In this document: one piece after another, positions 16,135-47,486 of the stretch
How positions within the stretch are numbered: the stretch's first letter is position 1
How the letters are laid out: each line of letters starts with the position of its first letter
DNA from: Liolophura sinensis
Taxonomy: Eukaryota > Mollusca > Polyplacophora > Chitonida > Chitonidae
Assembly (NCBI RefSeq): GCF_032854445.1
Contig: NC_088301.1
Location: forward strand, 47,053,116-47,117,115
Direction of reading: 5' to 3'
Length of the DNA stretch: 64,000 nt
The notes under the pieces: generated by a model
What the model saw: only the letters and a program-made list of their open reading frames with translations
Databases searched by the model: none
What the model was told of the DNA's origin: nothing
Made by a program: the position numbers and the translations under genes

Positions 16135-19100
16135 ATGCAGAGAGCCACCCAAGCCGTTGCCCTTTTGTTTTTTCTGTCATTTGCAGGTAGGGCTACTCTA
16201 TTTGTGAATTTTATAACCTGTGGATTTATACAATGTTTTGCAGTTTAAAATTGAAATACTCTCAAAATGCAATTCTGTACAAAAATACGCAAGATATAAA
16301 CCACATGTACTCATTAATTGTTACAAGTTTGCAAAGGAACATGCATTAATTTGTACCAAATTGTGTACCTGAGATTCACATTTTGTTTACATGGCGGGCT
16401 ACACAAACACATGCGCACAAAACGGTACACATTCCTGAGAGTAGATCTACGTCTTGGGATCATTTTATGCTATCGAATATCATCCCGTTACTTCAACGTA
16501 CATGTAATTTTTAACGGAAGTTGCACCTCCAGGCTGCAAATAACGGATTGATCCAATGATCGTCAGGCTAGTTTTACGCAGCAATCGTAACTTGCGGAAA
16601 TCAGGATCCTTCAGACTTTCTTCTGTGATTTCGGGGCCTCCGTGGCTCAGTCGGTTAGCGCGCTAGCGCAGCGTAATGACCCAGGAGCCTCTCACCAATG
16701 CGGTTGCTATGAGTTCAAGTCCAGCTCATGCTGGCTTCCTCTCCGGCCGTAAGTGGGAAGGTCTTGCAGCAACCTGCGGATGGTCGTGGGTTTCCACCCA
16801 CCATAATGCTGGCCGCCGTCGTATAAGTGAAATATTCTTGAGTACGGCGTAAAACACCAATCAAATAAATCAAATAAATAAACCTTCTTTGATTTCAAAT
16901 AGGTTCATTGGAGCATAACGCTTGTAGCTCAACAGAACTGTAAGGCCCCTATACCTTTATTGTAGCAGTAGACGGCTTAGGCCAGTGTTTGCGTCATTTT
17001 CTGGCCTACTAGTCCTAGGACTAGTGAGATAGGTGAATAAGGGGATCTTTCTCTACGTATCGCATGTCGGTGTATAAATCTATACACAGTTTATTCACAA
17101 ACATGGCTCACAACTTTATCAAATCATGCCGGTAAACGTGCACTTCAAAACATATACGGGATCAGCAAAGCATTGCCCAGGCCCAAGATCACAAAGCTGT
17201 CTTAGACTTAAGTCAGACTTAGTCTTAACTTTTGGTATTAATTCTGTACTTAGACCCGAACTTAAACACATTTTTTATTTTGTCGTGTAGAACTAAAATA
17301 ACTTTCAGTATTGACAGTATTCCTCATGTAAATCACAATTTTAGCGTTTAGCGTTATTTTGAAGTTATAAGACTAAAGTCTGACTTACGTCTAAAACAGC
17401 TTCATGATCCTGGGCCCGATGCCACAAAGCCCTTTATGACTTAAGTCAAACTCTAAAAACTCTGTATGATGTTAAGTTTTAGTATTGGAAGTTTAAACTT
17501 TGACACATTTGCCTTAGATAACATTGATGAGCTGTACAAAGGTTAATTTCTAAAACCGAAAAGTAAGCGCTGAGATCGTATTTCAAATTTTGAACCTTAA
17601 AGGCCATTGCAACGTAGGTTGTAGATATATAAAGTGCACCAAGCGAAGGGCAAAGTACGCTTTATGAAACAAGCCCCTGTCTTCTAAATAGCTGTAGTGT
17701 CATTATATGTATACTAACTGTAGAAGAACAAAACCAGTACAGCGAAAACAGTCCTACAAGCCCCTCCGGCAGATTTGTTGGGGAAAGGTGGGGGGGAGGG
17801 GGGAGATAGGTGTAGGCGGTGCAGTGATGTTAATTGCATTTTCATAAACTTCATTGGTGTAGAATTACTGAAAACACTGTGTGGTCATCACATTTAATAA
17901 ACAGTGACATGAAAACAATCATATAAACATCTGCATAATTAGGTTATAAGTTTGTACAACAGAATGGCACATACCGATATCATGTCAGTATGTATTAACC
18001 AGTCATAAGTTTGCCCGTCATATGATATCAGTATATATTTATAAGCCAAAATTTACATGCAATATCCACGTGCTCCATGTATGACTAGAGAAAGAACGTA
18101 ATCCGACATCCATGTAGCCGGTATACTAACCAATAAATATATTAAACCATTAAATGTAGCCATATAAGCTGGCATAAATAAACTTTATTTATGCAAGTTA
18201 AATGTTGAATGTATTTTTGTTAGCAAAACTTCTGTTATAAAGATATGTATTAATGGCCACTTAAGTAAATATCATGGCGACTACATGGGTATGTAGTTAG
18301 TTTCATGTAGCGAACTGGAGGGTATAAATTACACCATGCCACGTTTCTTCTACCCATCATTAAACTGGAGGATATAAATTAACCCAGGCTACGGATTTTC
18401 CACTGATCGGTAAATTGGAGGATATAAATTACACTATGCTACGCTGCTTCTATCGATCACTAAACTGGAGGATATAAATTACACTATGCTACGTTGCTTC
18501 TATCGATCACTAAACTGGAGGATATAAATTAACCCACGCTACGTATTTTCCACTGATCGGTAAATTGAAGGATATAAATTACACTATGCTACGTTGCTTC
18601 TATCGATCACTAAACTGGAGGGTATAAATTAACCCACGCTACGTATTTTCCACTGATCGGTAAATTGAAGAATATAAAATACACTATGCTACGTTGCTTC
18701 TATCGATCACTAAACTGGAGGATATAAATTACACTATGCTACGTTGCTTCTATCGATCACTAAACTGGAGGATATAAAATACACTGTGTTACGTTTCTTC
18801 CTCGGGTGGGTAAACCGGAGTATATAAATTAACCCATGCGACGATTCTTCCACCGATCGGTAAACTGGAAGGTGTAAATTAAACCATGCTACGTTTCATC
18901 CACCGATAAGTAAACCGGGGGTTTATAAGGCTTAACTGATATACAGCATATCTGCTTTCAATTTTAGATGCCATTAAGTGCAGCTTCAGGACTGTGTCCG
19001 ACAACAACACATCATACACCGAACACTTGTTTTACTGCGTCTCAGAATGCTGTGGTGATGCATGCTGTCCTGCAAAGCCCTATATTTACGAGTGAGTATA

Positions 19101-20838
19101 ATGAGCAACGTGGAACTATAAAGGGTGAAGTTGTCAGCCACACCTTGGTAGTCTATGCGGATTATTTTCTGCAAATCCTTTTCTTTATTGAGAAAAAAAA
19201 TCGGAAAACTCTTCCACGAAAGTTTAGGTGTGAACCTATTTTTCGCAACGCCTAAATGACGGAAAGACTAAACATCTCGATTTATCCCAGCTGTGTGTCA
19301 ATTATATTTGAGCACATGCACTATATTACTTACAAAATGTAATTTTCTTTCAGCACAAAAGTAACAGAACGATTAGCTGCGGCTTTCGCCTGGGTGTTCA
19401 TTGCAGCCACTATCGTGATCGTGCTGTCCTGGACCAATTTGAATGAGCATGTGGCTAGATATTTGCGACGCTGGAAGGTTACAAGGGAAACTGTATCTTG
19501 TAATTATTATCGTTTAGTTGTTAGATGTTGTATCCTATTTTCAAGCAGAGCACTACATTTAAGTGAGAAATAAACTTTTTTTATTGTAAGCTTTTATACA
19601 GAAAGACTTTAAATCCTTGACTGTAAGCAAGAAATGGGTTATACTGTGTTAAGAAGTTTGCGAATGGCCATTGACCTATAGGGTCTATAACAATGTTTGG
19701 CGAAAACCCATATGAGACGAACATGTTCATGTACACCCTCATTTAATCAGCGGCTACATATGCGGACACGTCTTTCGTGTAGGCAATGAATATGACCGGT
19801 AGAGAAGTAGCTGCCAATGAAATGAGTCTCAGACACATAGATTAATTGATTTGTGCACTAAATTTGTCACTATAATGATGACAGTCGGTTTTATGGGTGG
19901 AGGAAACCGGAATGCCGGCAGTAAACTACCAATGTTTGGCATGCTACTGACGTATTTCTCCACGTGTGGCGTATAGACTTGCACGCTGGGTTAGTGAAAG
20001 ACAAATCATCAACGAAATTGGGTTTGCCAACGACTGCCTTACAAGTACCATCGACCACACATGTCGCTGTAACCTCACTAACAGTGAGCGTGGGAGAACA
20101 ATACTGTATGGGTTAGAATGGGAGACTCGAGGACCAGCAACACAGACTGTCCAAATGACAGTAGAACGCATCCTTTTCGTCTGTGACCTTGTTGTGCGTG
20201 TGTACTTCATATATGTTTTATGAGCGCTCAAACACCGATAATTGTGAAGTAAAGGAAAGGAAAGAACAAATGAACTCACGTCTTGATACAGACGGGAAAG
20301 AGTTTCACGAGTTCCCATTTATTATTACAACTTTCATTTAACCGACGATGTTCTGCTTTTGTGAACAATGATTACTTCGCAACAGTAGCAGATAAAGAGA
20401 CATTTATATGAAATTGTTTATCCGTAAACCTGTTTAATTTTTTTTTTGTAAACTGTCTGTTTGAATTGTATATCAAGTATATATTGGGTATTCTTTTTAA
20501 CAGTGACGTCCGTTGATAACAGCCCTCGGTCTATCCCTAACTACGACATTCCTTCGATGGCACCCAACCTGTACACCCAGATGCCAGTCCTAGTCCCCGC
20601 GACCACGATCGACGCTAGTAAACACTTGGCACCAACAGACAAAACCAATAAGTGTCTGAGCAACGAGGACAAAACTGCTCCTTTGACAAGCCCGCCATCT
20701 TACCCTTCGGTTACGGGACAGCCGGAAACCGAAAACAAGTCTGAGCCTTCCAACTACCATAGCACTTCATCGGGTGAAATGGTTGAAGGAGGCAATACAG
20801 AAGCCGAAATTGGAGACAGAAGTAAACTGTTACAGTAA
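16135..20838 (+). CDS. Gene A: Shisa-like (STMC6-type) single-pass membrane protein with PPxY tail
   Basis: Exons 16135-16186, 18968-19091, 19354-19499 and 20504-20838 give 218 residues with intron phases 1, 2, 1. Residues 1-17 are a signal peptide (ALLFFLSFA core). The ectodomain has exactly six cysteines, C22-x18-C41-x3-CC(45,46)-x3-CC(50,51), with N-glycosylation sites at N30 and N31. This is the six-cysteine pattern of the Shisa-like superfamily. The membrane span is about 66-85. The cytoplasmic tail is Pro/Ser/Thr-rich and carries PPSY at 171-174, a WW-domain ligand. Such proteins act as adaptors in secretory or plasma membranes, and the partner here is unknown. The third donor (T|GTAATT) was chosen because it alone gives the phase shared with B-D. 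It is the first of four tandem paralogues. Confidence 0.82.
16633..16882 (+). mobile_element. Full-length tRNA-derived SINE
   Basis: The head GGGGCCTCCGTGGCTCAGTC holds a Pol III A box, and GAGTTCAAGTCC is the B box. A conserved middle (CCTGCGGATGGTCGTGGGTT) and a tail ending GAGTACGGCGTAAAACACC with (AAAT)n complete it. It resembles the MetaSINE group of molluscs. It is the most intact copy in the window and sits in intron 1 of gene A. Confidence 0.9.
17178..17415. mobile_element. MITE-like element with about 45-bp inverted ends
   Basis: The left end reads GGCCCAAGATCACAAAGCTG and then TCTTAGACTTAAGTCAGAC. The right end on the minus strand reads GGGCCCAGGATCATGAAGCT and then GTTTTAGACGTAAGTCAGAC. 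It is about 235 bp, non-coding, in intron 1 of gene A. A possible related copy, much weaker, follows at 17415-17680. Confidence 0.75.
18311..18930 (+). repeat. 50-bp minisatellite, 12 copies plus a partial, two unit types
   Basis: The period is strictly 50 bp from 18311 to 18911. Every unit carries CTGGAGGATATAAATT or a variant. Type A continues ACACTATGCTACGTTGCTTC and type B continues AACCCACGCTACGTATTTTC. From 18361 the order is B A A B A B A A, implying duplication of multi-unit blocks. It ends about 40 bp before exon 2 of gene A. Confidence 0.96.
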
Positions 20839-20872
20839 TATAACACGTATGTTGAGAATCGAACTTTCCTGT

Positions 20873-20878
20873 AATAAA
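20873..20878 (+). terminator. Poly(A) signal of gene A
   Basis: AATAAA lies 35 bases after the TAA stop of gene A, which makes the 3' UTR very short. Nothing else nearby competes. Confidence 0.6.
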
Positions 20879-21094
20879 ACTGTGTAATGACATCGTTCTA
20901 TTCATTGATTGAGGCTTCATCTGTTCTTGCCAACTTCAGTTGTCTTTTTCGATTTTTCCAGTTGGAACATATGCAAGTTATGTAACCAATTAAACAAATA
21001 TTAGATTGTTGTGTGCCAGCATTTTCGGATCGTTCCAGCTTCATAAAACATATAAGCTTTTCTATTTATTGTCGTTGAAATTCTTTACTGGAAG

Positions 21095-21250
21095 CATAAA
21101 TGTACTGGTGTCAAGACGAGCCCAACAATGTAGGAGGAAAACGTCAAGTCGAAGCTTTGATGTTTATCTTCGAGTTTCGCTTTAATAAGGAAGGTCAACA
21201 GCCAAACAATATGTGGGTTTTACTAAGAATACATGTAGGAACACCCATAT
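21095..21250 (+). repeat. Dispersed repeat, copy 1
   Basis: The phrase TTTGATGTTTATCTTC and, further on, ATATGTGGG and TTTACTAAGAA with CATGTAGGAACA recur in the same order at 60690-60835. The element is unnamed and its boundaries are unclear. Confidence 0.6.
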
Positions 21251-22281: not shown

Positions 22282-22354
22282 CTCATCGTAACGTCATTGT
22301 ATTGTGGTGCTCGTCATTCATGCTTTAAAAAATGTGGCAGTTTTGGTAACGTCG

Positions 22355-22565
22355 TTAACGGTGTTCAAACGCCCGGAGTTAAATGTTCCCTTTGTCATGA
22401 TGACGTCACGTCAAACACAGCACGACGCTACAGTTGATACATTGAAACGTTGTAGACGTTGCGCCAGAATTCATTTTTAACGTAATGATGGCTCTAGGTA
22501 CTGCTTTGCATTAGCAGCAGCTCATGGGATTAAAAATATGCCACCTTCCCGTTATATATTGCCCA
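22355..22565 (+). promoter_or_regulatory. Upstream module of gene B with CRE palindrome
   Basis: About 210 bp beginning 550 bp before the gene B start. It holds TGACGTCA at 22401-22408, then TACATTG, GTAGACGTTGCG and ATGGCTC, and AATATGCCACC near its end. The same words in the same order occur before gene C and, on the other strand, before gene D. It could be a shared promoter or enhancer, or an old small transposon. Confidence 0.55.
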
Positions 22566-22905: not shown

Positions 22906-24723
22906 ATGGGCAGTACAGACCTCATTCTTACCCTGTTGCTGTCAATGAACGAAGCAGGTATGCAAGACATTAGGTTATTCAAATGAAATCATAAAATCTT
23001 CCTGTGACTGCACAAGCCCTATATTCTTTTAAAGTCAAACAGTATTGTGCTATATGACTTAAACAGTAAGTGTGGTGATTTTCTCGTATCTATTTGCAAC
23101 CTGCAACCTGCGAATAAGTACCAGCTCCAGTTTGTCATTTTTGTGCAAAATCTGCAAAACAACAGCTGATGTTTATGCCTTATCTTCCTTACATCTGTGT
23201 GTAACGCCTGTAAAACAACAGATAATGCAGTTTCCGCTGTTTCTTCTTAACATTTGTGTGCCAAGGCATGTCAAATAGTAGCTGGTACAAATGGTAGTTT
23301 AATCGCTCTTCGACGCACATCAGCGTGGGAAGCTATTTAATATAGACCTTTGCAGAAATATCTTTGGGCACATCGACGTATGTGCGATATTTCAAAAAAA
23401 GTGAGAGGAAGTTCGAAATAGTTACAGTATCATATCTTCAAAAAAGACAAATTAATGTACCCATTTACAGTATACATCTGAAATTATATGCGAACGATGT
23501 AATTGTGAATGGTAAGAGTAACATGTTGTGTAGTGGATGTGAATTTCAAGCACATAAACACAAGCTAGCGAAATGTCGTATAGCCACATGACAATATGTT
23601 CAGGATTCGCCTGGGGGTAGGCAGTAGACTGGAGCATTGTAGTGCTGGAATGGGGTGTTTGATTTACTGTATTTTTCTAGCATTAACCTATGTAACGTGC
23701 GCAATAACCTTTTCAGTTATGTAGCATATTCAATCATATACTGTTAATGTTAATAACTAAGGCCTGTGTATAAATGTCTCGTTTGTACTTTTCCCAGTCG
23801 CCAGCTATGAGCACGAGTGTTCCGTCACAAATTCGAGCGAAAGCTGCGTGAGGGAGTGTTGCCGTGCAAGTTGCTGTTCAATCGGGGAAGGATGCTGCCA
23901 AGAAGACTGTTGTTCCAAATTCCAAGTAGATGGAGGGTACAAAACCCATTCGATTTTTCTGAATACACAAACAGATACTAACCTTAAGGCATAATACAAT
24001 GTAGATCTGAGATCTGTGTCCTACTTCCCACTATGCTTTCAGAAATACAGCTCTCTTACTCTTAACTCTATCACTAACCTGGAACTCGGCCTTTTCGAAT
24101 GCGCTGTCCTCAACATGTCAATACTGTACTGCTACAAAAACATGTTTCCAGTAATCCTTCAATAATTCTTACTCGATATCACCTAGTTATTCATTAATAA
24201 TAAAGTCCTTACCGTCACAATTAACACAAATACACTTGTTACATTGGCAGCAATTTGAGCCGGCCTCAGTATAAAACATTTAAACCAGAACTCGTGGAAT
24301 GGTTGGAGATGTACGCCATCTAAAGAGCGATTGGCAAAATTCTGGAGAGTCTTAACTTTAATTTCTTTGTTAAGAATGAGCAGAATGGAATATAACCAAA
24401 AACTGTGAAAAACACCAATGATATTAACTTTGGGAGGAGCGGCCAAACCCACCATGGTCGGGTGATGCGAAAATGGCGGTTTGTAAAGTTCTGATGCTGT
24501 CCAAGTGGCTGCATACGTTACATTTCAGTTAAATGCGATGCTGGGGTCTTTATTATTCCCACATAATGAGTTGATATGAATTCAGAATTACTTGAAGATC
24601 ACAGGACACCTTTTTTTGTGACGTTCAGCGTTGGGAATTCGAGGATAGGATAGTGAATGTAACGATTAAGAGCGGTTACTTGTGGAAGCTAAGTTTTACT
24701 GCCGTATGTGAAAATAATACTTT

Positions 24724-24800
<77 letters not shown>

Positions 24801-26452
24801 AGTGAAACCTTACCGATACACGATTTGATTTTTTTTTCTAACAGAGACTGGGCTCTTCAGAACTCAGACTTGATCGGTTACATCGTGATATGTGCATTCC
24901 TGGTTGGTTCCCTGATTTACTACATTTACAAACATCGTCATCGCCCTGCAGTTGCTCGTCTTTTAAGAGTTATAGGACTGGATAGATCTACTAATGGTAT
25001 TATTTATTCTTGTATCATACTTTGTGTAAGTTTCTTGTCCTATGGTTAAGCCTGATGTTATGTTATCATATGACTGAGGCACGTTGACCAATTCAAGTGT
25101 GAACGCTTACTATATAACTGCAATCCTGGCAAAAGCTGATACACATACAGCTCGTCCGATAAACAAAGAGATCCCACAAATGTGACCCAGGACGACGGAT
25201 ATGGGGGTCGGATGAATTTCGTATCTACCCATCTTCCGTCAGTGTTGAGAGCTATACGTGATTAGCTTACGACTGTTCATAGATGAATATCAGCCAATGA
25301 AAAGCTACACACGCGCCGAATTACTTCGCCTGCATTGAGTGCAAATGTCTTACATATGTTGACTGTATAGTCAGAGATACTTTGGAAATTCCTTAATTAG
25401 TTTCATCTTTAATTGTTACGTAAGAATGATGTTGCCATCGAAGTTTTTAATCTTCTTGTCTGGCATATGTTAAGTGGCATTTCAGCTGGCTTTCTCATTC
25501 AGGTAGACATGCATGCCACGCACTCGTGACATTATCGTCGTCGCCGATTTTCCCATGACTCCTCAAAGTCGCCCCTTGACAACCATGTTCGTAAACTCAA
25601 AACAACCATCTGCCACTCAGTTTTAATTGTGTACATGATAATATAAAAAAAAATGTCCACAACTTCCGAGGGTGAACTCTTTTGTGTGGCGAGCATACTT
25701 TTCAGAAATGTTGCGGTATGCTCTGAGGATGAAAGACTGACGTCACTTACTTAAATTACTTCGCGCTTCTTCACTCGCCTCTGTAATCAGAAGCACCAGA
25801 CAAAAAAAACATCGCTGATTTGAGTCATAATTTTGTGCTTGTAGTCCATGTTCCATTTATGAGATAAACAGAATCTCCACCTCGTGTAGTATCAAATTTA
25901 TTAAACGAAAGTTTACAAATTTCGTTTGTTTCAAGTCTCGGCGAAACAAACGAAAGTTTTTAACTCTCGTTGAATAAATTGGATACATTAGGGGCACTCG
26001 TGGAGATCCTCTATTGACAACCTTAGCAAGCAGTCAGTCGTGTCAGTCAAATATTTTTAAGTACGGAGCAATCTCATTTCTTCCAAAGCTATACCGGTAT
26101 GAGCATGGGAGTTAGTACCAACATGTAGCTATTGCTATTGTATGGTCAGTGGGCTTACTAAAGGCTGCGCAGACTATCGGTTTGATTCCATGTTCATATT
26201 CATACTCTTCTTTCAGGCCCTACCGGACACAATCAGACGAATAATATATCACCGTTACCTGGAGCAAGCGGAGGGGTTTCGCGTGGGTTTAATACTGCAT
26301 TTACAAACACTGGAGCACATGTCCAGCCATCATCATACCCCTCAGCCGGCTACCCTTTGGCTAGCACAAACGTTTCGAACACTCCATATGTGGATGATGA
26401 TATACCAACGGTGGCGCCTCCGTCCTATTCGGAAGCCACCGCTACCAGATGA
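22906..26452 (+). CDS. Gene B: Shisa-like membrane protein, ten cysteines, PPSYSEA tail
   Basis: Exons 22906-22957, 23798-23936, 24845-24996 and 26217-26452 give 192 residues, phases 1, 2, 1. The first coding exon is 52 bp as in A, C and D. A leucine-rich signal peptide (1-17) is followed by cysteines at 25, 34, 38-39, 43-44, 50-51 and 55-56, two CC pairs more than gene A. The membrane span is about 73-92, followed by a basic stop (KHRHR). The tail is Gly/Ser/Asn-rich and ends with PPSY at 182-185 in the context APPSYSEA, a strong WW-domain ligand near the C-terminus. The exon 2 donor (GG|GTACAA) was chosen to keep phase 2. An earlier GTAGAT is possible but would break the frame. Confidence 0.82.
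24046..24122 (+). repeat. Dispersed repeat shared with 48818-48893
   Basis: Both copies contain GCTTTCAGAAATA, then TCACTAAC, GAA-TCGGC-TTTTCGA and ATGTCAA in the same order. This one lies in intron 2 of gene B, the other downstream of gene D. Confidence 0.6.
24727..24796 (+). repeat. (TA)n microsatellite
   Basis: About 35 perfect TA units in intron 2 of gene B, 48 bp before exon 3. Likely length-variable and able to extrude a cruciform. Confidence 0.98.
25872..26008. mobile_element. Hairpin element in intron 3 of gene B
   Basis: The left half starts AATCTCCACCTCG and passes GTATCAAATTTATTAAACGA. The right half on the minus strand starts ATCTCCACGAGTG and passes GTATCCAATTTATTCAACGA. Inside, TTTCGTTTGTTTC pairs with GAAACAAACGAAA. 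Almost the whole 137 bp folds on itself, as in short palindromic MITEs. Confidence 0.75.
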
Positions 26453-31344: not shown

Positions 31345-31560
31345 CGTCGTTTAATTGACGTCAAATGTTCCTTTCCTGGCTCATCGTGATGACGTCACAG
31401 AGAGTACAACGTTACAGCCGAAACTGAGATATTGTAACATGGTAGACGTTTCGTTACAGTCCATTTTTGACGTATCTGTGGTTCGATGTCCTGCTGCGCA
31501 CTGCCTCGTGGGATTAATAGATACGCCGCCTCACTATTGCAAAAGTGTTGACACATGCGT
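31345..31560 (+). promoter_or_regulatory. Upstream module of gene C
   Basis: Same orientation and word order as the gene B module: AAATGTTCC, ATGATGACGTCAC-like (TGACGTCA at 31390-31397), GTAGACGTTTCG, CATTTTTGACGTA, GGGATTA and GCC-CC. It ends about 450 bp before the gene C start. A frame of 69 codons across it also appears in the minus-strand copy near gene D, but similarity is at DNA level, so coding is doubtful. Confidence 0.55.
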
Positions 31561-32004: not shown

Positions 32005-35000
32005 ATGATGGAAGCTTTCTTAATCTGCTTGCTGTTTTCATTTTTGACGGTAACAGGTAGGCCTACTTTTCACGCTTATTTTTAGCAAATTTTGTTTATG
32101 TATATTAATGCATTATATACGGTTTTACTTTGTTGTTATTGTAAGTGAAATGCCAGTTACATCGCTCGCCCTTTCGATGGAATAAATACAACTCATCATG
32201 GGCGTCGCTATGGATTGTATGGTGGGGTCAACTATCCTGTCTTATAGGCCACCAAGCAAAGGCCGAGGAAGTTCCAAGGCCTTACATTGGAGGAGACGCG
32301 TTCTGCAAGAAATCGGGAGTGCGTGTGGTAGGGGGTGTTTTCGGGGTTAAGTAAGCTCGCCAGATAATGAAATTTTCAGAGTCTGTGGAATATCATCAGT
32401 TTTGGGGAAGAATGATTGGAGAGACCTTAGGGCACTCATACGCTCAAAATACCAGAGGACTATCTCTATTAAGATTTTGTTCATGCAAAATACTAAATTC
32501 AGTCCTAAACCTATTTTCATGACATTTATCATACATCTTCCTATCTTGTAATGCTTAAGTTTAATTACAGTTGGGTAATCATTTTCATAAGTATTCCCGT
32601 GCAGATACTCAGTGCAATAATGGATTTTCATATTCACAGATTTTGTCATTGCACCACTGTACCTGAAACTTTATGTATCTCTTTTATATCATCTAAACAT
32701 GTATATACTGTCTGATTATTATTTTCATTTTAATTCTCTTTCTTTTATTCTTGGAAATGTTGAGGGATAGAAGGGAGATATTTCGGACATCATTCGAATT
32801 TTAGTTCAAATTCATTTTAACCCAAACAGGAGTGTCGTTCGAACCTGGCGACGCCCCCGAGCATATCTTACAGAAAAATGACAAGAATGCGCTCTACCAG
32901 CAAAGGGATATTATATAGACAAAAGATAATTGCAGTCACTAGCCTGTCATTGTATTTTCTGCTTTGGGATTTACAACTAAAATATTCTGTGGACTAGATT
33001 GACGAAAATTAATTACTTGTATTTTCTTTCATACAGCTGCCAATACATGTTCATATGTCGTAAACTGTGACGTGTTACACTCTGTGTGCTGTACACGTTA
33101 TGACTGCTGTGACGAAGCCTGCTGTGCAGAGAAGTAAGTATTCCTAGTATACTTTTGTGTGTATCTGTGTACATATATTATGGTTTAAATCTGTGCATTC
33201 CTTCACTGTATCCAATCTTTATGAATCCCACTGATTTCCAACAATATGAAATCTCACATTTCCAGTTTTTGCTTACAACCTGGTCCAGTTGCATGTAATT
33301 CATTAGACCTCTTCAGTAGCCTAATGGCTAGACCATCCGCCTCGAAGTCGGGTGTCAGTACAATGTGACTAGGTGGGGTGTCATGTATGATGTCTTAGGC
33401 ATGACACTTCAGGTGGGGGGCAGCACTTTGCCGGCATGGATTCGCCCTGCGGGGAATCAATATAGGTACAAGCACCTAATGACACCTGTCCGTCATATGA
33501 CTGAAAAATTGCTAAATACGACGTAAACCCCGAAGCATAATTTTGACACGTGCGTGAAATATTCTTGAGTATGGCTTAAAACTCCAATCAAAGAAAACAA
33601 TTTTCAGAAATGGCTTGGTGAAAATTATGAAGGTAAGTGCACTTCATGACTGTTCATCACACGTTGTCATGGTAGTTAATTGCTCATTTGTCTATAAGTG
33701 GGCTTTCGACCCGTTTCACAAAACGCATAGGGTTATGGGCACATAACTTCCATGACGAACAAGGCGTGCTTACATGAAGTTATCTTGACGTTACGTTCAC
33801 CTAACTACCATCGCAGCTGTATCAAAGGGTCAAGTTGTTCTCAAGTATTAGCCCACACCGGAATTAAGTTATTTTTTATATTTAAGATTTTAGCCAAATT
33901 CAGCAGTCAATACAATTTTCTAAAGCAGCAAATTTAGGCCATATTTAATATACTGTTACGCCAGTATTTTCGGACTAAGCACTAAATTGAAGACTTGGCT
34001 TAAAGTTAAATCTGGTATTAAGTCTTAAAACAGTTTTGAACTACCGGGCCCTGAAGACATTACGTCGTCATGAGAGTCACGTGCTTGCAACGTTAAGACG
34101 ACTTTGTGCAACAGCACCTAGGCCGTCTTTCACGAAAACTTCGTACATGATTTTTTTTTATATCCTTTCTCGTAAACGACATCTTAATGTGGCGCTATAA
34201 CCTAGAAAAGTGTGAGGTGATGTACACATCGCTAACATCAATCTTTCTGTGACTTTCTTGCTTTTGCTGACAATGAAACAAAAGTGTGCAGTTTGCACGT
34301 ACTTTTCTGAGCGGCTCCTTCTTCCTTTCAGGGTATTGCTCATTAATATTGACGTTTTCAAGAAGTTTCATAATTAGGGTCAAAATGGACTAATAAATAT
34401 CACGTGATAAATTGCATAATAGAGCAAAGACTCAGCTTGATTTGCCTAAATCTGAGCGTAAATTGTTCGATTTTTATACTCTTTTCAAGTAATAAAGCCA
34501 AAATTTTACTTCTTTGGCTGTACCCAATGTACATATCTTCTTGAAAAGTTTTACGTACACTTAAGTGTTTTTATTTTTTGTGTAATATAGGTTCGCCGAG
34601 GACGAGGAACCTGAGGAAACTGATTACACAGTTTTATATATAATAGTAGCATTTTTCGTTGGAATCTTGCTGGTGAAGTTCAAACCTACAAAGGTACTGA
34701 AGTGTCTTACTTGCGGCAAGTGTTTCAAAAACAGTGGTGAGTATATATACTGTCTGTGTTCTTTTAATGCCTACGATATAAAAGAGTATGTACGTCAGTT
34801 TCATATGTGAGTTGGTTATTAATGCCATTTGAAATCCACTTTCCAGCCCCAAAACTCGTGTCGATGTCGACGTTTTGTGTCGAGTCTGCACGCAATACGG
34901 CCCCATGTAAAACCTCTACATCGAATATCAAATGGACCTTTAACTTGCAAAAGCTCTTCGCACATTGTCGACATTTGAAAGGTGGCGTCGACCTTTAGCG

Positions 35001-38000
35001 TGGAGTTTTTACATGTTTAAGCCCTAGAGCTAGACGTCGAATTCTGAAACATTACATTGAAACGCGACATCGAGTTTTAATGGGCTTTAACATACATGTA
35101 ACAACTCGTCGCCAACCCCTTTGACGTCGACGAGTTGAAGGTGCGTCGAGATTTGGGGGTTGATACAAGTGTATTTTCGTGGCACAACGAAGACAATAAT
35201 TTTACCTTTATTCTTACATAAAGGTAACCCCGGGTTCTGCTCGGTTTCCATCCACCATAATGCTGACCGCCGTTGTATAAGTGAAATATTCTTGAGTAAG
35301 GCATAAAACACCAATCAAATAAATAAAGTGTTATAAAGCAGAAATGGTGCAATAATTGTTACACAAGGTAATAGTATTACCGTACCCATCGCGACAACCT
35401 TTAGAATAATATTAGGCCTATTTCATTAAGAGATGGTACTTGTTACTGTTATGTGTATGCCTTTCAACTGGAGCTCGTTTGGTAGCTCGCTATACACAGG
35501 TCAATGCATGATTTGCGCCTCTCCTTCCCTTTGGCTCTTTTCATCGTCAAAACTAACGATAACTGATCCGACGCTGTTCACCTTTCACTTCAACAAATAT
35601 TTATGATATTCAAAAATCACTAGACAGTATGTTATGTTACACTATACATCTTTTACATATATAATCATGAACTGCAAGCACGCTCTAAGACAAGTAATTT
35701 CTTCACCTCTTAACACGTATATGTAACATAAATGTGTCACTTATAGATTGTTGTTTTATCAGCGTTACATTGATAATGTTATCAAAAAAAAAGACGGCAC
35801 TGAGCCCGTGCTAAGAAGTGCAACGAAACGTAAGAAAGTTTCCATCATGCCGACTATATGACAAATTGGATTGTTTCAATTTTAATATTGTAAATTATAC
35901 TTACTTGAGTAGCAATATGGCGTGTATACATCTCATCTTAAAGCATTTGCTAGATCTCTGAGTTATAGAACGATTAACGTCAACTATCGTCAGTTATTGC
36001 TGCAAAAACTGGTGAGTCAAGATTTTTCCACTCAAAGGCTTTCATTCTAATTTTCCTTAGGCTTACAGTGAGTATAATTCTCTTATAACTAAATATAAAC
36101 AAAGTGTCCAGAATCCCGCATCAGTGGTTGTATATTCGTCTTGTTGAATTAGGTCTCCACATTGGGTATATAAACAGTTGCAATCAAGCGCAAGTAAGAT
36201 AAATATTGTGATTATCGACAACATAATCTTACATGTTACACGATTCGGATACTGATTTCATGCATTCGCCTAGCACATGAAAACAGGAAAAATATCGCCA
36301 TTACAGGCATGAGTAGGAATCGAATAAAATTCATTTTGCACCATTATAAAGGTTTGCAACAAAATGTAAAATGGCTGTGCCTGTGGCCCTAGATATTTAC
36401 TGGAATCGGTCTAAATGGTGTCTTATTTGAATTTTAACAGATTTCTGTTGTGCCGTTTTTGTCGTTTGTTCATTTTATCTCAAGAATATTACACTTTTAC
36501 GACGAAGGCCAACCAGGGGGAACCAATAGCCATCCACAGGTTGCAGGCAGGCATTACCATGCATTATCGGAGAGGAAGCTAGCATAATCTGGACTTAAAC
36601 TCACAACGATCTCATTGATGAGAGGCTCCTGGGTCATTGTGCAGCACTATCTTACGAGACGAGCCCATCACCAAGGCTCTTAGTGTTATGAAAACTTGTA
36701 CAAGGGGAGGAAGATGAAAGCTTTTCTTCGTCGCCAACCATATGGCGTCTTGTAAAAGATGCACAGATGAAATTCACTTGACTTAGAGTGATTTGGGAAC
36801 TTGAGTGCGAACTCCCACTTTAAAAACTTTCATGAAACCGACCCCAGGCCTCTGAAATGCTAAGTCCACGTGCACAATCCCGATAAATGAAATTAGCACC
36901 AGTAGCAAGCCAGTACCTCATTGATTTACATACCGATGTACAACCTCTTCGTTCTGCCTACAATGGTTCTCGTCAAAAGGCTGATGACAAAAATCACCGA
37001 GATTAGACAGGTTAGGCAATTCTTGAACAACCTACGAGTAACGAGTGACATCGTCGTTATTTGTGTTGCTTAGTTTCTTATTTGTCATGCTATTTGTCAG
37101 TCTAGAGGGCGTTTTATCTGTCTAAGCGCAAAATCCTGTTGTATGGACGTGATGGTGTACCTGTAGAAGAGATATGTGGGACCTATCACAAATGCTCGAA
37201 AATCAGCGCAGAAACCAGATTTAATTATTATTAGCTCGTTAATGAGTAGCTTAACCTCTTCAGTAATAGTAATAATCAACGAATTAAAACTATTACTGAA
37301 GGGATTGAAGCCTGAATGGTAGAACACCTAATAAATAAATAAATAAATATTTGTCTCTCTTTATTTTAGTTGCTGACTCAGAGGCGCCTTCACAGTCGCA
37401 CCATCCCACGAAGACACCGCCTAATGACTGGGGCGCATCTCGTCCCGTCGAAACACCACCACCTGACGCCGTCTCGGTCAAGGCTAAATCCGACCTTCCT
37501 GCCTCTGACTCTATGAGAACACCATCCTCTGAAACAAGCGATCCCGAGACTGTGACCCAGCATATTGCATCTGACCCTACGAGAACACCGGCCTCTGAAA
37601 CGAGCGCTGTCAAGACTACGTCCCATCATATTGCCTCTCACCCTGCAAGAACACCGTCCTCTGAGACTGGGGTAATTAAATCTTCGTCCCACCATTCTCC
37701 ATCTTCATCCACAAGAACACGGCCTCCTGAAATTAGCGCAGTCAAGATTTCGTCCCATCATCCTACTTCTCACCCCACGAGTACACCGTCCTCTGAGACT
37801 GGCGCAGTCAAGAGTAGGCCTATCTCCCGCCATTCTCCATCTCCATCCACGAGAACACTGTCTCCTGAAACTAGCGCAGTAAAGATTTCCTCACACCATT
37901 CTACACCTCACTCCACGAGTGCACCGTCCTCTGAGACTGGCGCAGTAAAAACTTCGTCCCACCATTCTCTATCTCCTTCTACAAGAACACTGTCTCCTAA

Positions 38001-39537
38001 AACTAGTGAATTTAATCTTCCGTCCCAACACACCGCGAGAACAGCGTCCTCTGTCACAAGTCCAGTCAAGACTGGCTCCCGCCATTCTCCGTCTCATTCG
38101 ACGAGAACACCATCCCCTGTCACAAGCGCAGTAAAGACTACATCCCGCCCTTCTCCATCTTCATCCACGACAACACTGTCTCCTGAAGCTAGTGCACTCA
38201 CGATTTCCTCCCACCATTCTCTATCTCACACCACTAGAACACTGTCCCCTGAAACTAGTGCAGTCAAAGTTTCGTCCCACCATTCTGCTTCTCAGCCCTC
38301 GAGAACAGCGTCCTCTGAGACTGGCGCAGTCAAGACTACGTCCCGCCATTCTCCATCCCCATCCACGAAAACACAATCCCCTGTGACAAGCGCAGCAAAG
38401 ACTTCGTCTCGTCATTCTCCATCTCCTTTCACGAAAACACTGCCTCCTGAAACTAGCGCAGTCAAAATTTCGCCCCACCATTCTGCTTCTCAGCCCTCGA
38501 GAACACCGTCCTCTGAGACTGGCGCAGTCAAGACTACGTCCCGCCATTCTCCATCCCCATCCACGAAAACACAATCCCCTGTGACAAGCGCAGCAAAGAC
38601 TACGTCCCACGATTCTCCATCTCCATCCAAGAGAACACTGCCTCCTGAAACTAGCGCAGCCAAAATTTCATCCCACCATTCTTCTTCTCAGCCCTCGAGA
38701 GCACCGTCCTCTGAGACTGGTGGAGTCAAGGCTACGTCCCGCCATTCTCCATCTCCATCCACGAGAAAATTGTCTCCTGAAACTAGCGCAGCCAAAATTT
38801 CGTCCCACCATTCTGCTTCTCAGCCCTCGAGAACACCGTCCTCTGAGACTGGCGCAGTAAAGACTACGTCCCACGATTCTCCATCTCCATCCACGAGAAC
38901 ACTATCTCCTGAAACTAGCGCAGACAAAATTTCGTCCCACCATTCTGCTTCTCAGCCCTCGAGAACACCGTCCTCTGAGACTGGTGGAGTCAAGACTACG
39001 TCCCGCCATTCTCCATCTAAATCCAGGAGAACACCGTCTCCTGAAACTTGTCCAGTCAAAATTTCGCTCCACCATTCTGATTCTCAACCCTCAAGAACAA
39101 CGTCCTCTGAGACTGGCGCAGTCAAGACTACGTCCCGCCATTCTCCATCTCCATCCACGAAAACACCATCCCCTGTCACAAGCGCAGTAAAGACTTCGTC
39201 CCGTCATTCTCCATCTCATTCTACAAGAACACCGTCTCCTGAAACTTGCCCAGTCAAAATTTCGCTCCACCATTCTGATTCTCAACCCTCAAGAACAACG
39301 TCCTCTGAGACTGGCGCAGTCAAGACTACGTCCCGCCATTCTCCATCTCCATCCACGAGAACACCATCCCCCGTGACAAGCGCAGTCAAAATTTCACTCC
39401 ACCATTCTGATTCTCAATCCTCAAGAACAACGCCCTCTGAGACTTCGCCCAGTCATTCTCCACCTCCACCCACGAGCACACTGCTTCCTGAAACTAATGC
39501 AACCAAACTTTCGGCCTGCACTTCTGCTCTTTTTTAG
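32005..39537 (+). CDS. Gene C: Shisa-like membrane protein with giant Ser/Thr/Pro repeat tail
   Basis: Exons 32005-32056, 33037-33133, 34591-34736 and 37370-39537 give 820 residues with phases 1, 2, 1. Starting at the first of two ATGs makes exon 1 exactly 52 bp, as in its paralogues. Residues 1-17 are a signal peptide. The ectodomain is very short with eight cysteines (22, 28, 35-36, 41-42, 46-47). The membrane span is about 63-78. A juxtamembrane CLTCGKC (88-94) could be palmitoylated. Exon 3 is 146 bp, the same as in gene A. Exon 4 encodes a 722-residue tail, mostly about 31 repeats of 22 residues rich in Ser-Pro and Thr-Pro sites. By topology this tail is cytoplasmic, odd for a mucin-like sequence. 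No PPxY is present. The last exon could be mis-assembled in length, but its frame is open throughout. Confidence 0.78.
33306..33537 (+). mobile_element. SINE of a second tRNA-headed family
   Basis: The head CTTCAGTAGCCTAATGGCTA is tRNA-like, and the tail TCATATGACTGAAAAATTGC leads into ACGACGTAAACCCC. The same tail ends the element at 44411-44697. It lies in intron 2 of gene C. Confidence 0.75.
33549..33600 (+). mobile_element. SINE tail fragment
   Basis: Contains GTGAAATATTCTTGAGTATG and GGCTTAAAACTCCAATCAAA, the 3' end of the first SINE family, directly after the second-family SINE. Confidence 0.7.
34846..35160. mobile_element. MITE-like element rich in CGTCGA
   Basis: The left end is CCCCAAAACTCGTGTCGATG. 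The minus-strand right end is CCCCCAAATCTCGACGCACC, followed by a CTCGTCGACGTC shared with the left side. It is about 315 bp, starting about 110 bp after exon 3 of gene C. Confidence 0.55.
35229..35328 (+). mobile_element. SINE 3' fragment
   Basis: Contains TCTGCTCGGTTTCCATCCAC, CATAATGCTGACCGCC and GTGAAATATTCTTGAGTAAG, ending CACCAATCAAATAAATAAA. Confidence 0.85.
36480..36690 (-). mobile_element. SINE, reverse orientation, head retained
   Basis: Read on the minus strand it shows the tRNA-like head, GAGCCTCTCATCAATGAG, the B-box region GTGAGTTTAAGTCC and CCTGCAACCTGTGGATGGCT. Its tail has decayed. It lies in intron 3 of gene C. Confidence 0.75.
37522..39537 (+). repeat. 66-bp coding repeat (22 residues) in gene C tail
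   Basis: About 31 units follow the consensus x-S-x-E-T-(S/G)-A-V-K-(T/I)-(T/S)-S-(R/H)-H-S-x-S-x-S-T-R-T. Nearly all are 22 residues, with one each of 24, 18 and 17. Adjacent units alternate between a PSSETGAVKTTSRHS type and an LSPETSAVKISSHHS type. A three-unit (198 bp) block is repeated almost identically near 39035 and 39232, showing recent expansion. Indels stay in frame, which argues for selection on the protein. Confidence 0.95.
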
Positions 39538-40024
39538 CCACCGAGAACAGCGTCAGCTGACACAGGTGCAGTCAAAGTTTCGTTCGAAAACCAAAATACC
39601 GTCCTCTAATGAAGTCGCAGCCAAGTCTGCGTCCCAGCATTCCGCATCTCACCAAACAAGTAGATCGTTGGCTGACAAACATTCTCAACATTCCTAGCCT
39701 CACCTAACCAAAACACCGTCAGCTGACACAGGCACAGTCAAGGCTACATCTCCTTATGCCGCATCTCACTCGGCGATCCCTGACGCTAGGTACCCAGACA
39801 CCAGTGGAGATCAGCCTTTGTCCGACCATCCTTCACCTCGGTCTCCCAGAACACAGTCCCCTGTCACCGGTGGAGACCAGCCTTCGTCCGACCATATGGC
39901 ATCTCAATCTTCAACAATCTTGTCCTTGGATACTGGTGGAGACCAGCCTTTGTCCGACTATTCTGCAACTCAAGTCACGATTACTGCGGATAGCACCCAA
40001 CCAACAAAATCCAGAAGCCAGTGA
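39538..40024 (+). pseudogene. Decayed continuation of the gene C repeat tail beyond the stop
   Basis: After the TAG at 39535-39537 the same frame continues with PPRTASADTGAVKVSFENQN before a TAA. Another frame then carries SASQHSASHQTSRS, TKTPSADTGTVKAT and, to 40024, three copies of a GGDQP-containing unit. So the coding tail was once longer, or an allele without the stop exists. The GGDQP block is a different repeat from the 22-residue unit. Confidence 0.65.
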
Positions 40025-42104: not shown

Positions 42105-42320
42105 CGGCGACGACAGTGTGATAGAGGGCAAATGGTCACACGTAGTAGGTGAAATACGGCCTCTTGTCAAATTAGTTCAGTCAGGGTTTATTCTGACTTC
42201 ATGTAAATGCTCATACATTAGCAAATTAGCAGCCTGGCTGAAGCAGAATTACGTAAAAAAAAAAAACAAAAACGCAGTGATGTCAATTGCAAATTATTAG
42301 ACGTCACTGGTCTGAAATTA
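42105..42320 (+). repeat. Interspersed repeat, copy downstream of gene C
   Basis: Shares GACAGTGTGATA, GGCAAATGGTCACA, CGCCTCTTGTCA-like and ACGTCACTGGTC words in the same order with 48345-48560. A third partial copy is at 48702-48780. Confidence 0.65.
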
Positions 42321-42898
42321 CTCAGACTTACTATCTTTAAACTTGTGTTCACCTCGTGTATACATATACACGATTGCATAACAGATCCCACAGCTTCCAT
42401 GGGTCTGGACGCAAGCCTCACTGGTTGGAAGAGTGCCTCCAACTCCACCCCGCTTCCTATACACTTCCTATATAGATAGGCGTATACGCATGAGCCATGG
42501 CCCTTTGTAGTTTCGTTTTCAAACAGGTCTAGGCCTATGTGCTCATTGTTCAGCTCCTGTATTGAGAACAACTATGTGGGCCTAACAGGTCTCATGTCTC
42601 AGGGCAGATGTTAGTGTTGCGAATGAAGTGCTTCATAGACTATAATTAAATTGTACACCATTTTCGGGATGTAATTTGCTGAAGATGCATAGATATACAA
42701 AGACTTGATTAATAGGATTTATGACCACACAACACAAAACCGCTACCTGGAGGTTTAATTATACAGAAAACTAATGGCTAACAGTAGCAATGATATAAAG
42801 GTAACATAACAAAGAAATCATCTATAGCCGTAGAATTATCAAACGACGATAAATTAAAACTTCGATACCTTCAGGCCTACTATAAGGCACTGCTAAAC

Positions 42899-43093
42899 CC
42901 GCGTTCACACAAAAGATGTGATTTGTCACATACCGGCTGGTCGAATTCGACAACTGTCATGAAAGTATGACAAGCGTGTTTAATAAATCGCGTTCAGAAG
43001 ATACGATTTTTCCAATGCTACAATCGTATGGAATATTGCATGTCCTGTTTTCATTCGATTTGTCGATTCGACTATGGCACCGTATGAACGCGA
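42899..43093. mobile_element. Small inverted-repeat element
   Basis: Left CGCGTTCACACAAAAGATG and right (minus) CGCGTTCATACGGTGCCAT. Internal AAATCGCGTTCAGAAG repeats the end word. About 195 bp. Confidence 0.55.
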
Positions 43094-43859
43094 CTGTACA
43101 GAATTCATGAAAAACGTAATGACTCATTCTTTCTTTCAGACCGCCGCATCTGGTTGAGCATTAGAGCAGAGAGTGTCCGTTATCCTTTGATATGAAAGTT
43201 ACAGATGTTGTGACAAATCTTGCAGTTTTAAAATGAGTAAATATAATTATAATATTGATTATGCCGTGGAATCGCAATTGAGACATACCATGTTTATAAC
43301 TTTGATATAAATATTGTATACTAGGATACTCTATATAGGTCATGAATATCGCGGTGCATCCTTACTTAAGTTTCAGCTAAAATTACAATGTCAGTAATAT
43401 TATGGACAGTTTCTTGGGATGAACATCTTTAGCTACAATTAAATTGCATTTTTCAAAGAAATCTGAATACACAAACATCTTCAATGGAAATATCTTGTCG
43501 TGCAAGACATTGATATTATTCGTTTGCTTTCTTTGTTTGTGACGCATCAACCAGCAAAGAATGGTTAAGTGAGCACTACTTTGTCATTTTCATACCGGTG
43601 ATGATTGCACTGTGTTGAACGGAAGCTGGAGTAAGCCTATAGGATACCTTGTATTGTTCACATGCGTCCATTAATGGACATTATACACTGTAAAGACGTG
43701 GCTGCAGAGTATTGCATGAAAGATCTAAAAACAAATAAATAAATAAATAAAAAAAATAAAATAAATAAAAACACGAACTGTACGATTCGGAAGCTGCCCC
43801 GAACCTAAGGTAAAACATATCAATGCACTTTTCAGTACTGGGTGGACCCAGGATCCCCA

Positions 43860-43980
43860 CACCCTTGCGGTCGCTGGGAGTTCAAGTCCAGCTCATGCTG
43901 GCTTCCTCTCCAGCCGTACGTGGGAAGGTCTTCCAGCTACCTGCGAATTGTCGTGGGTTTCCCCGGGCTCTGCCATAAGG
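43860..43980 (+). mobile_element. SINE middle fragment
   Basis: Carries the B-box region GAGTTCAAGTCCAGCTCATG, then GTGGGAAGGTCTTCCAGC and GTCGTGGGTTTCCCCGGGCT. It lacks the usual 3' tail. Confidence 0.85.
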
Positions 43981-44410
43981 CCACACTAAATTCAAACGCT
44001 TTTCTTAAGTGTTAGAATGAGTACAGATCTTTTGTATGCAAATATGGACAGAGTGTCCAGAGATCTGTGGCACCTTGCTTCATTCTGTCTAACTCCGATT
44101 AACTTGGGGTTAGGGGCTATATATTCGTCGTGTTTAATTGGAGGATCATAAATATTTAGACTATCGACGACTTATGAACTACCATGGTTCTACTTATTTA
44201 AGTCATCCACCTATAACATTCCTGTTGATTTTCCATCATCATTAAACACCCAAGCACACACGCACTGACACGCACACAAACAGGCATGCGTAAATGCAGG
44301 TTTATGCAGTCGTGAATACTTACACACATATGTATATAAGTGCATACATGCATACATATGTACATCAGTACATGCATACGTACATAGGCCTACATGCATG
44401 CATACCAGCG

Positions 44411-44697
44411 GACCGGCCCCGATAGCACAGTTGGATAGTACAGTTTTTATGGCGTCCTCTTCCGAGGCGGTAGATTCAGGGTCAATCCTGGGTTGGGTCA
44501 CACCTAAGGCCTGACAGAAAAAGAGGAAGTTGTAACTTCCTTGCCTTCGGTAAGTCGTTGAAGCTGCACTAGATTAAGTAACAGTGGAAATCCGTCCTGC
44601 AACAAGGAGGCACATTACACGCCCTTTAAGGACCTTCTTCGTCGTCATATGACTGAAAAATTGCTAAGTACGAGGTCAAACCCTAAGCGCTCCATTA
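44411..44697 (+). mobile_element. SINE of the second family, near full length
   Basis: The tRNA-like head is CCCCGATAGCACAGTTGGAT, with a B-box-like GATTCAGGGTCAATCCTGGG. The tail is GTCATATGACTGAAAAATTG followed by CTAAGTACGAGG. Length is about 287 bp. Confidence 0.8.
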
Positions 44698-45289
44698 GTC
44701 ACTCACCCTTTCCAGCGGTAATTCAGGCTAAAGACGCGTAGTCTATAGTTCATGCAAGATTTGCCGATGACTATCTGTGGGCAAACTGATGATAACACGA
44801 TATTATAAAAAGAATATTATAAAAGAACAATGATGAGTGCGGTTTAGACCCGAGTGACCATTGCACGACAATAGTAGGCCACGAAATGATGACTATGGCC
44901 AAGAACTCGTAATCTTGGCACTGCTCTGCTGAGGGCTCACTGTGTATAGGGCTAAGCCAAGAATGCCTATTTACAAAGATCGGCACTTATTTACAATGAT
45001 CGGCACTCATATGCAGGCAAATACACGAACAATTAAATTGCATTAATCGGATGAGTTATAGCGAGAGCCTTGGTCGAAATAAGGCTGAAAATTAATGTGG
45101 AATAACCTACAATGTTGAAGACACTCCTAGGGCATTCGTGTACATTAATGTTCAAAGCATATTCTTTCCCTAAAGCAGAAAGACATTATGCAATGACGCA
45201 CTTTATCTACATTGTTTATCTGTGCGTCTTGCCGTTACGACGTCACGATGGATTTTTTGCATTATGACACCAAACCGCACGCCACGAAG

Positions 45290-45510
45290 ACGTCAAATGG
45301 AACAGCCGCCATTTATGGGGTGGTGGCATATTTTGTGATACCGTGAGGTGGCGCTTGTGTGAAGCAGGGCCTCGAGCCATTGTTATGTCAAGAATGCATC
45401 GTAGCGTAACGTCTACACCATTACAATGTATCTGTTTCCATTGCACCATCGTGCAATGTGACGTCATCATGATGAAAACGTCTATAAAAGAGCAAAGCAA
45501 CGTCATATAG
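45290..45510 (-). promoter_or_regulatory. Upstream module of gene D, inverted relative to B and C
   Basis: On the minus strand it reads ATCATGATGACGTCAC (TGACGTCA at 45459-45466), ATACATTGTAATGG, GTAGACGTTACGC, ATGGCTCGAGG and AAAATATGCCACC, matching the B and C modules. On the plus strand the CRE is followed 16 bp on by TATAAAAG. Confidence 0.55.
45483..45490 (+). promoter_or_regulatory. TATA box candidate for gene D
   Basis: TATAAAAG lies 16 bp after the TGACGTCA and about 210 bp before the gene D ATG. A transcript starting about 30 bp downstream would have a 5' UTR near 180 bases. Confidence 0.45.
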
Positions 45511-45698
45511 GTCGAATAGCCATGCAGGATATACTGCTGCTTCCACGACGCTGACAGTTGACGTTAGTTTACGTACACTGGACGCCATTCTGCGAGTAAT
45601 ACTGATTTTGCATCACGAGTACGATAGATCATGTAGCCTGTCCAACACGACTGAATAGTACATATACAATTGTTTCTACAAGAGACCAGATCTATACG

Positions 45699-47486
45699 AT
45701 GGATACAGTCAAGTGGTCGTTGGCATTTGCGTATCTCATTCAGGAAATAGGTAGGCCCCTTGGTTTGGTTGACATTGTAATTTGTATGAACAATAACCGT
45801 TTTTGAATCATGAATTTTCACGTATACATTTTATTTCCTGCACAGGTTAATAGTCTTTAATGTAATGAATCTCTCAAAATATTTACAGTAATGCACTGAT
45901 GATCAGGGCATACATCGCTCTGTTCAAGGCTCCTGTGAAATCTGTTTCTTTTCCTATAAACAATATATATGCCATCGCAGGAGAAAGAAGTGACAATGTA
46001 ATAACAATGTTGACATATAATGATAGCGATTTCAACATACACATAGCTTAGGTTATGTATGTATAAACTTAATTGTACACTGTTTTACCTATACAGTTGC
46101 TCTTCAATGTCCCAGAACGAATTCATCGACAGCAACGTGTCCTACATCATGTTGTGATAGTTCCTTTTGCTGTGCTGGCGAGTGTTGTGACTCCGTATGC
46201 TGCGCTCAATAGTAAGTCAAACGTGTTCAAATGTGACCTGCTAACCTTTCTGGACTTGAACTGAAATTATCAGGTCAAATACATGATGATGTTTGTGTTA
46301 CATTAACATTTCTTACAAAGAAAATTTCGAAAATTTTACACAATAACAGAACCTACCTTTCATAAAATTTCCTCTTCATCTGTGCACGTTTTACCATTCA
46401 AAATCCGTAATAAAAGTTCCTACAATTTATAAAGCGAGTCTCAATATAAATTTTTTATCAGGCTTTACAGAATGATTTTAACACTATGTATAGTGCTAAG
46501 GCCAATTGAAAGGCAAAAAACTGAGAAGATTTGATTCTAGAATATGGATTTTTCTCCCAGAATCCCTGGTATAGCTTCTATACTTATGTTTACATGCTTG
46601 CGACTGATGTACAAGGATTTGTTATTACACATATAAAGGCAATACCATCATATATAGTGTTAACACTCTTAGAATGCAGTTGTTCATCGATAGGCCTATA
46701 CATGATGAAGTAGACAATATTCAAAATCTATACTGGATTGTGTTTTTCATTTTCCACGTTTACATAGTGAGATCAAGGAGATTTTGATGCGGTACTACTA
46801 CGTATTTCCGATTTTCGTCGTTGTATGCGCCACAATAGTGATCATTTGGAACCACCGTGACGCCTGCAGGCGGGAAACTTCCCGAGGTAGGACAGAGGAC
46901 AGGTGTTCGGTGTACATAATGAATTTGACAAATTACACAAAGTGACTGTGCGAGGTTGGATCGAAAATCAAGACATTTAGTTTAGATTTTAAATACTTTC
47001 AAATTAACCCCTTGTTGTTTATGTCTATGTGTCATATGATTGATCATAACATAATATCTGTTCACAATTTATGCACACCTATACAGATGTAAGTGTTTTT
47101 TTTTCCCTGCTTTATTTTGTCTTCCTTCCCGTTTTTCTTCTTTACAATTCTTATTTTGAATGTCAAAATGGTAAGCGTCATTTCTTCATGCCAATTAACC
47201 TTATTCTGCTGCAGATATAAGGGTGTAAAGGTGACATGATAGGTCTGCTCTGATATTTGTACATTACCGGGCTAAATTGGTATGGAATGCTTTGTTGTGG
47301 TCTGTTTCAATGAAAATTTTTCCTTGTTATTTAACAGTTCGGCCAAAGGTATCAAAACCGAGACGAATAATGGTAAAGGAGCGCTCGAGTCAATCAATAA
47401 CGAAGACTTCATCGAAAATCCCCGAACATTCCAGTGCCGACCTTCCCGGAGCAGTCCCGGAACCTACGAGACTTTTGGAACCATGA
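45699..47486 (+). CDS. Gene D: Shisa-like membrane protein with short basic tail
   Basis: Exons 45699-45750, 46097-46211, 46768-46886 and 47338-47486 give 144 residues, phases 1, 2, 1, with a 52-bp first exon. The start is a weak signal peptide (WSLAFAYLI core). Cysteines lie at 22, 32, 36-37, 42-43, 47-48 and 52-53, and N26 is a glycosylation site. The membrane span is about 66-83 (VFPIFVVVCATIVII). The tail is basic and Ser/Thr-rich (VRPKVSKPRR), ending RLLEP, with no PPxY. A second frame in the last exon stays open from before exon 4 to 47566, so the chosen frame depends on the phase-1 junction shared with the paralogues. It is the shortest and perhaps fastest-changing member. Confidence 0.78.

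Follow-up and report, generated by a model that had tools for sequence, protein, structure and literature searches.

In vertebrates, Shisa-like adaptors determine how abundant receptors are and how they are sorted. The superfamily that takes in proteins of this kind, STMC6, is described as consisting of single-span proteins with six conserved cysteines, a proline-rich tail, and WY, WF, or IW residues beside the membrane (PMC6125347). WBP1L is reported to have an N-glycosylation site, palmitoylation, and PY motifs, the last of which bind NEDD4-family ubiquitin ligases (PMC6991692), and CYYR1 is reported to bind NEDD4-family ubiquitin ligases via PY motifs as well, with WWP1 bound by its PPxY motifs (PMC11399591). 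Here we compare these systems with four split genes, A to D, that lie head to tail on the plus strand of a 64-kb stretch of Liolophura sinensis DNA (contig C7, 47053116-47117115), which we refer to as the window. Their anatomy is best read as Shisa-like (STMC6-type), and we put the probability that A to D are four old tandem paralogues of this kind, acting as type I membrane adaptors, at roughly 0.6. The array probably works like, and descends from, the STMC6 superfamily, with formal membership unproven. We favor this reading because the same anatomy recurs in all four genes, because the cysteine pattern is above chance, and because the intron phases are common with those of the Shisa genes of the same genome. 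Sequons in three of the four ectodomains, PPSY in two of the four tails, and the similarity of the A-D and B-D ectodomain pairs add to these reasons.

The four split genes are confirmed to be present as the original prediction described them. That prediction had proposed head-to-tail genes with a 52-nt first exon and intron phases 1-2-1, and for each product a signal peptide, a CC-pair ectodomain of about 30-45 residues, one membrane span, and a single tail exon. We rebuilt the gene models on the DNA, using splice sites and phases, the exon joins being inferred from sequence, and recovered every one of these features in 4/4 genes. Gene A spans 16135-20838, B 22906-26452, C 32005-39537, and D 45699-47486, and the predicted proteins are 218, 192, 820, and 144 aa long. 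Each gene has four coding exons, which divide the product into a hydrophobic leader, a cysteine-rich ectodomain, the membrane span, and the entire tail. The four first coding exons measure 52 nt each (A, 16135..16186, with the phase 1 donor CAG|GTAGGG; B, 22906..22957; C, 32005..32056, counted from the first of two ATGs; D, 45699..45750), and the intron phases are 1, 2, and 1 throughout. The span exons lie at 19354..19499 in A (end uncertain, 19499 or 19562), 24845..24996 in B (with a weak donor), 34591..34736 in C, where a juxtamembrane cysteine cluster, KCLTCGKCF, follows the span, and 46768..46886 in D. The order of signal peptide, short ectodomain, single span, and cytoplasmic tail was read in 4/4 conceptual translations, together with a hydropathy scan of the first exons.

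These features stand out from the background of the window. The pattern C-x(3-30)-C-x(1-8)-CC-x(2-6)-CC has four matches in its six frames, and the same pattern in 100 windows simulated with an order-2 Markov model gave a mean of 0.1 and a maximum of 1, so that the count is far above chance. A scan for signal exons, defined as an ATG, 52 nt, a good donor, and a hydrophobic core, returned the starts of the four genes and nothing else on the plus strand; the minus strand gave a single match, of low complexity. With exon lengths of 46, 49, 55, 58, and 61 nt (plus strand only), the scan gave 0, 1, 0, 1, and 0 matches, and the single 49-nt match is the second ATG of gene C. Scanning both strands of 120 kb of flanking DNA, 60 kb per side, turned up no further copy, with 0 matches to the cysteine ladder and 1 to the 52-nt scan; the flanks were scanned as separate 10-kb pieces, from which a motif crossing a border would escape.

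Scored against textbook consensus frequencies, nine of the 12 donors rank in the top 3.3 percent of the GT sites that the window contains, and all 12 acceptors rank in the top 7.8 percent of its AG sites. The three weak donors belong to A intron 3, B intron 2, and B intron 3, and each has a phase-compatible donor. Alternative models concern two places: A exon 3 may end at 19562 rather than 19499, and the B tail exon is open in a second frame too. If the weak donors reflect genes that are decaying or mis-modelled, then the locus could be a remnant cluster in which only C and D, with their strong splice sites, or only A and B, with their PY motif, still work, and the continuation of the C-tail repeat past the stop at 39537 in other frames would fit such a history. 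We consider this improbable, since the frame is open through four exons with identical phases in all four genes, the cysteine spacing is kept, and the nine other donors and every acceptor rank high among the sites of the window. The original prediction had also held that a scan of single open reading frames misses all four genes. This goes too far, as the A tail exon lies in a 128-aa frame, the B span exon in a 118-aa frame, and the C tail in a 732-aa frame.

The comparison that bears most directly on identity is with the Shisa genes of the same genome. Whole-genome searches, which covered the 609-Mb assembly and its 632 contigs, found two genes with Shisa_N domains on C7 at 60.00 and 60.02 Mb (E 8.7e-10 and 2.4e-9, above the Pfam cut-off), about 13 Mb from the array on the same contig. 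In both, by inspection, the ectodomain exon is entered in phase 1 and left in phase 2, and the exon that follows carries the span and ends in phase 1. Both local Shisa genes thus have the 1-2-1 phases of the array around the same segments, in a comparison that covers the ectodomain and span exons, the first exons being only listed as candidates. The phases shared with the genome's own Shisa genes are the strongest new evidence for a Shisa-like identity. Because phase 1 is common after a signal peptide, the agreement is only moderate evidence. The ectodomains of both local genes have the cysteine order C*C*CC*CC, as does that of gene A. They differ from the array in the spacing between CC pairs, which is longer in the local Shisas, and in having G-Y-V-D and G-x-W between the first cysteines, which are absent from the array. 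Zebrafish Shisas differ in another way, their cysteines being given as C*C*CC*C*CC*C (PMC10531659). As an observation on the local pair itself, the two genes lie on opposite strands about 23 kb apart, and the pieces of ectodomain and span that were compared between them are 63 percent alike.

Within the array, the ectodomain is encoded by an exon of 31 to 45 whole codons, and its cysteine content differs between the genes by whole CC pairs. The mature ectodomain of A (18968..19091) has exactly six cysteines in the order C*C*CC*CC, as the original prediction stated, and it is the only one of the four with this number. That of C (33037..33133) has one CC pair more and eight cysteines, C*C*CC*CC*CC, and those of B (23798..23936, with a weak donor) and D (46097..46211) have two more and ten cysteines each, C*C*CC*CC*CC*CC, so that the CC pairs number two in A, three in C, and four in both B and D. 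N-x-S/T sequons stand in three of the four ectodomains, as NNT in A and NSS in B and D, and none is found in C. AlphaFold2 models of the four ectodomain exons were of low confidence (mean pLDDT 58.8, pTM 0.25).

B and D form the closest ectodomain pair, with 47 percent identity over the aligned exon. When sequences were shuffled with their cysteines kept in place, the score of the A-D ectodomain pair was reached in 7/1000 shuffles and that of B-D in 11/1000, which supports similarity beyond the cysteines in these two pairs. The span exon scores above full shuffles for B-C (8 of 1000), B-D (5 of 1000), and A-D (26 of 1000). With few pairs above shuffles, the paralogues are therefore old or fast-changing, and the kinship of A to D rests on position, exon anatomy, and these few pairs.

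A number of results weigh against a Shisa-like identity. The remaining ectodomain pairs are not above the cysteine-preserving shuffles (A-B 169, A-C 115, B-C 420, and C-D 143 of 1000), and the remaining span-exon pairs do no better than full shuffles (A-B 232, A-C 456, and C-D 568 of 1000). Three of the four members have more than six ectodomain cysteines, and the tails of two of the four, C and D, have no tyrosine and hence no PPxY. A profile comparison of the array with the two local Shisas found nothing, and of eight cysteine-preserving tests against them one was nominal (D against the second Shisa, 37/1000). The profile search of the spliced proteins, which the original prediction had put forward as a check, places none of them: no Shisa-like or other Pfam or NCBIfam model scored above cut-off for any of A to D (0/4). 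For Shisa_N (PF13908) in particular the count was 0/4 array genes, and the positive control, the two local Shisas, matched in both cases. The only suggestive match among A to D was that of WBP-1 (PF11669) to full-length D, at 17.2 bits (E 0.0081), short of the cut-off of 28.1, and it vanished once D was cut to exons 1-3 or 2-3. Pfam-A includes a CYYR1 model, and no CYYR1 family was listed for A to D in Pfam-A scans up to E 10.

A six-frame whole-genome search with WBP-1 (PF11669) gave four matches, none above cut-off and nothing credible; two of the four sit in a tandem repeat, and none has the cysteine pattern on reading of its frame. Protein D, searched against the whole genome, found its own three exons and three weak places (E 0.59, 2.2, and 9.5) and failed to retrieve A, B, or C, which also counts against the reading; the best of the weak matches (L019, E 0.59) has no convincing CC ladder, as judged by eye. 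In a protein collection, neither B alone (169 word-sharing candidates) nor an alignment of exons 1-3 of A to D (191 candidates) found anything at E 10 or better. A control search with a local Shisa in the same collection also returned nothing (58 candidates), and the collection therefore seems to be without close animal relatives, so that this protein negative says little. A search of gene A against PDB by sequence gave a weak match (E 0.16) to a DUF3992 domain-containing protein, which we take as chance.

If these negatives are taken at face value, then A to D could instead form a lineage-specific family of their own, made up of small type I membrane proteins with a cysteine ladder, maybe serving surface recognition or adhesion, and with a convergent likeness to STMC6. 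Signal peptides, CC pairs, and a single span are simple features, and phase 1 after the signal is common. This alternative is favored by the lack of a profile match and of significant similarity to the local Shisas, by the counts of 8 and 10 cysteines in three of the four members, and by the lack of PPxY in C and D. Convergence would poorly explain why all three phases match those of the local Shisa genes, and further points against it are the superfamily pattern of gene A, to which no cysteine is added, PPSY in two tails, and sequons in three ectodomains. We regard a separate origin as unlikely, if a good deal less so than the decay of some of the genes, and prefer to treat the array as Shisa-like. 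The identity put forward by the original prediction is thus strengthened by the 1-2-1 phases of the local Shisas and weakened by the lack of a profile match or significant similarity, by the three members that exceed six cysteines, and by the restriction of PPxY to two of four genes.

The tails differ from one another in size and composition. The A tail (20504..20838) and the B tail (26217..26452, with the C-terminal end APPSYSEATATR) contain one PPSY each. By shuffling, a PPxY arises in the A tail in 253/5000 trials and in the B tail in 294/5000, and each PPSY alone is suggestive, both together more so. Gene C has a tail of 722 residues (37370..39537), mostly Ser, Thr, and Pro, with no tyrosine and with 57 SP or TP steps from residue 98 onward, and this tail is encoded by a tandem repeat of 66/132/198 bp. 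Gene D ends in a short basic tail (47338..47486) with no tyrosine and no PPxY. The statement in the original prediction that the tails differ completely is too strong, since PPSY is common to A and B, and it holds insofar as the A and B tails cannot be aligned above shuffles (155/2000 reach the score). The related proposal of an extracellular module that is kept beside a tail that diversifies is borne out for the tail and not for the ectodomain, where the number of CC pairs changes too (6, 8, 10, and 10 cysteines). Beyond the TAG at 39537, the C-tail repeat appears to run on in other frames (39538-40024), a hint that the tail was formerly longer or that its length is polymorphic.

Set beside the described systems, gene A fits the description of the STMC6 superfamily, and B, C, and D fit it apart from their extra CC pairs, with C and D also lacking a PY motif. 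The likeness to WBP1, WBP1L, and VOPP1 lies in the signal peptide, the very small ectodomain, which in gene A reads C*C*CC*CC, the one span, and the PY motif in the A and B tails. WBP1 and VOPP1 have a CC-x3-CC spacing to which that of the array can be likened. The array differs from these proteins in having no match above the Pfam cut-off, in the extra CC pairs of B, C, and D, and in the lack of PY in C and D. With CYYR1 the array shares a signal peptide, a Cys-rich ectodomain, one span, and, in A and B, PPxY; CYYR1 has three PPxY, in contrast to one in A, one in B, and none in C and D.

If A to D are Shisa-like adaptors, then each gene would yield a type I membrane protein with a signal peptide, an outer stub of 31-45 residues held by putative disulphide bonds, one span, and a tail from a single exon. 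By analogy with the described families, the stub would face the lumen or the outside, the stub together with the span would engage client membrane proteins, and the choice of what is brought to these clients would fall to the tail. A and B may recruit WW-domain proteins through PPSY, NEDD4-family ubiquitin ligases being candidates, and such recruitment could tune the amount or sorting of client receptors. C and D, which have no PY motif, might act via other partners, or they might counteract A and B by taking up the clients that these two bind. We suggest, tentatively and with less than even odds, that the outer module of an adaptor grows and shrinks here by whole CC pairs within one exon of fixed borders and phases while each copy gets its own tail, from PY-bearing to a 722-residue Ser/Thr/Pro repeat, in which case the array would be a client-matching family with both adaptor ends diversifying in tandem.

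Protostomes that have any Shisa-family genes are reported to have one or two, with loss in Lottia (PMC7653359), and the Shisa Pfam family is reported as over-represented among mussel gill transcripts (PMC5549309). The portions of these two reports that concern Shisa genes do not describe such an array, and no account of Shisa-like genes arrayed in tandem and encoding more than six cysteines turned up in the accessible text of the literature searched. If our reading is correct, four extra, divergent, and adjacent members would form a natural series on what a tiny outer domain recognizes and what a tail adds, and profile searches would be missing part of the STMC6 superfamily outside vertebrates.

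The regions upstream of three of the genes raise the further idea of a shared, array-specific promoter that would make the array one co-regulated unit. A segment of about 160 bp containing TGACGTCA sites precedes B (22378-22546), C (31360-31531), and, inverted, D (45317-45478) by 0.2-0.5 kb, and the similarity among these three copies is 68 to 71 percent. This sequence is dispersed through the genome as a repeat, with 152 candidate places, of which 40 were scored, on many contigs and most at 72-79 percent identity. We reject a shared promoter on this ground and hold it to be very improbable.

Other repeats run through the window. Within intron 1 of gene A, at 18313-18915, lies a minisatellite in which a 50-bp unit is repeated about 12 times. 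A recurrent SINE-like element is found at 16640-16880 and in at least eight other places, with pieces that match each other at 16.7, 22.2, 33.5, 35.2, 36.5, 43.9, 49.2, 54.6, 57.7, and 62.6 kb. Upstream of the array, 3274-5471 holds an interrupted hAT-like transposon remnant with weak zf-C17orf113 and hAT dimerisation matches, both below cut-off, and 7471-14016 on the plus strand has several open frames (e.g., 10623-11468) with no Pfam match above cut-off, possibly another decayed mobile element. No Rfam family was found within the window. Downstream, on the minus strand, 53754-58336 and probably as far as 61654, lie exons that match the FUZ/MON1/HPS1 group in its first (E 3.8e-21) and third (E 5.5e-19) longin domains, and on our reading they would belong to a MON1 gene that begins with an exon near 61654. 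A second minisatellite, at 56194-57425, is open in several frames and has a strong strand skew.

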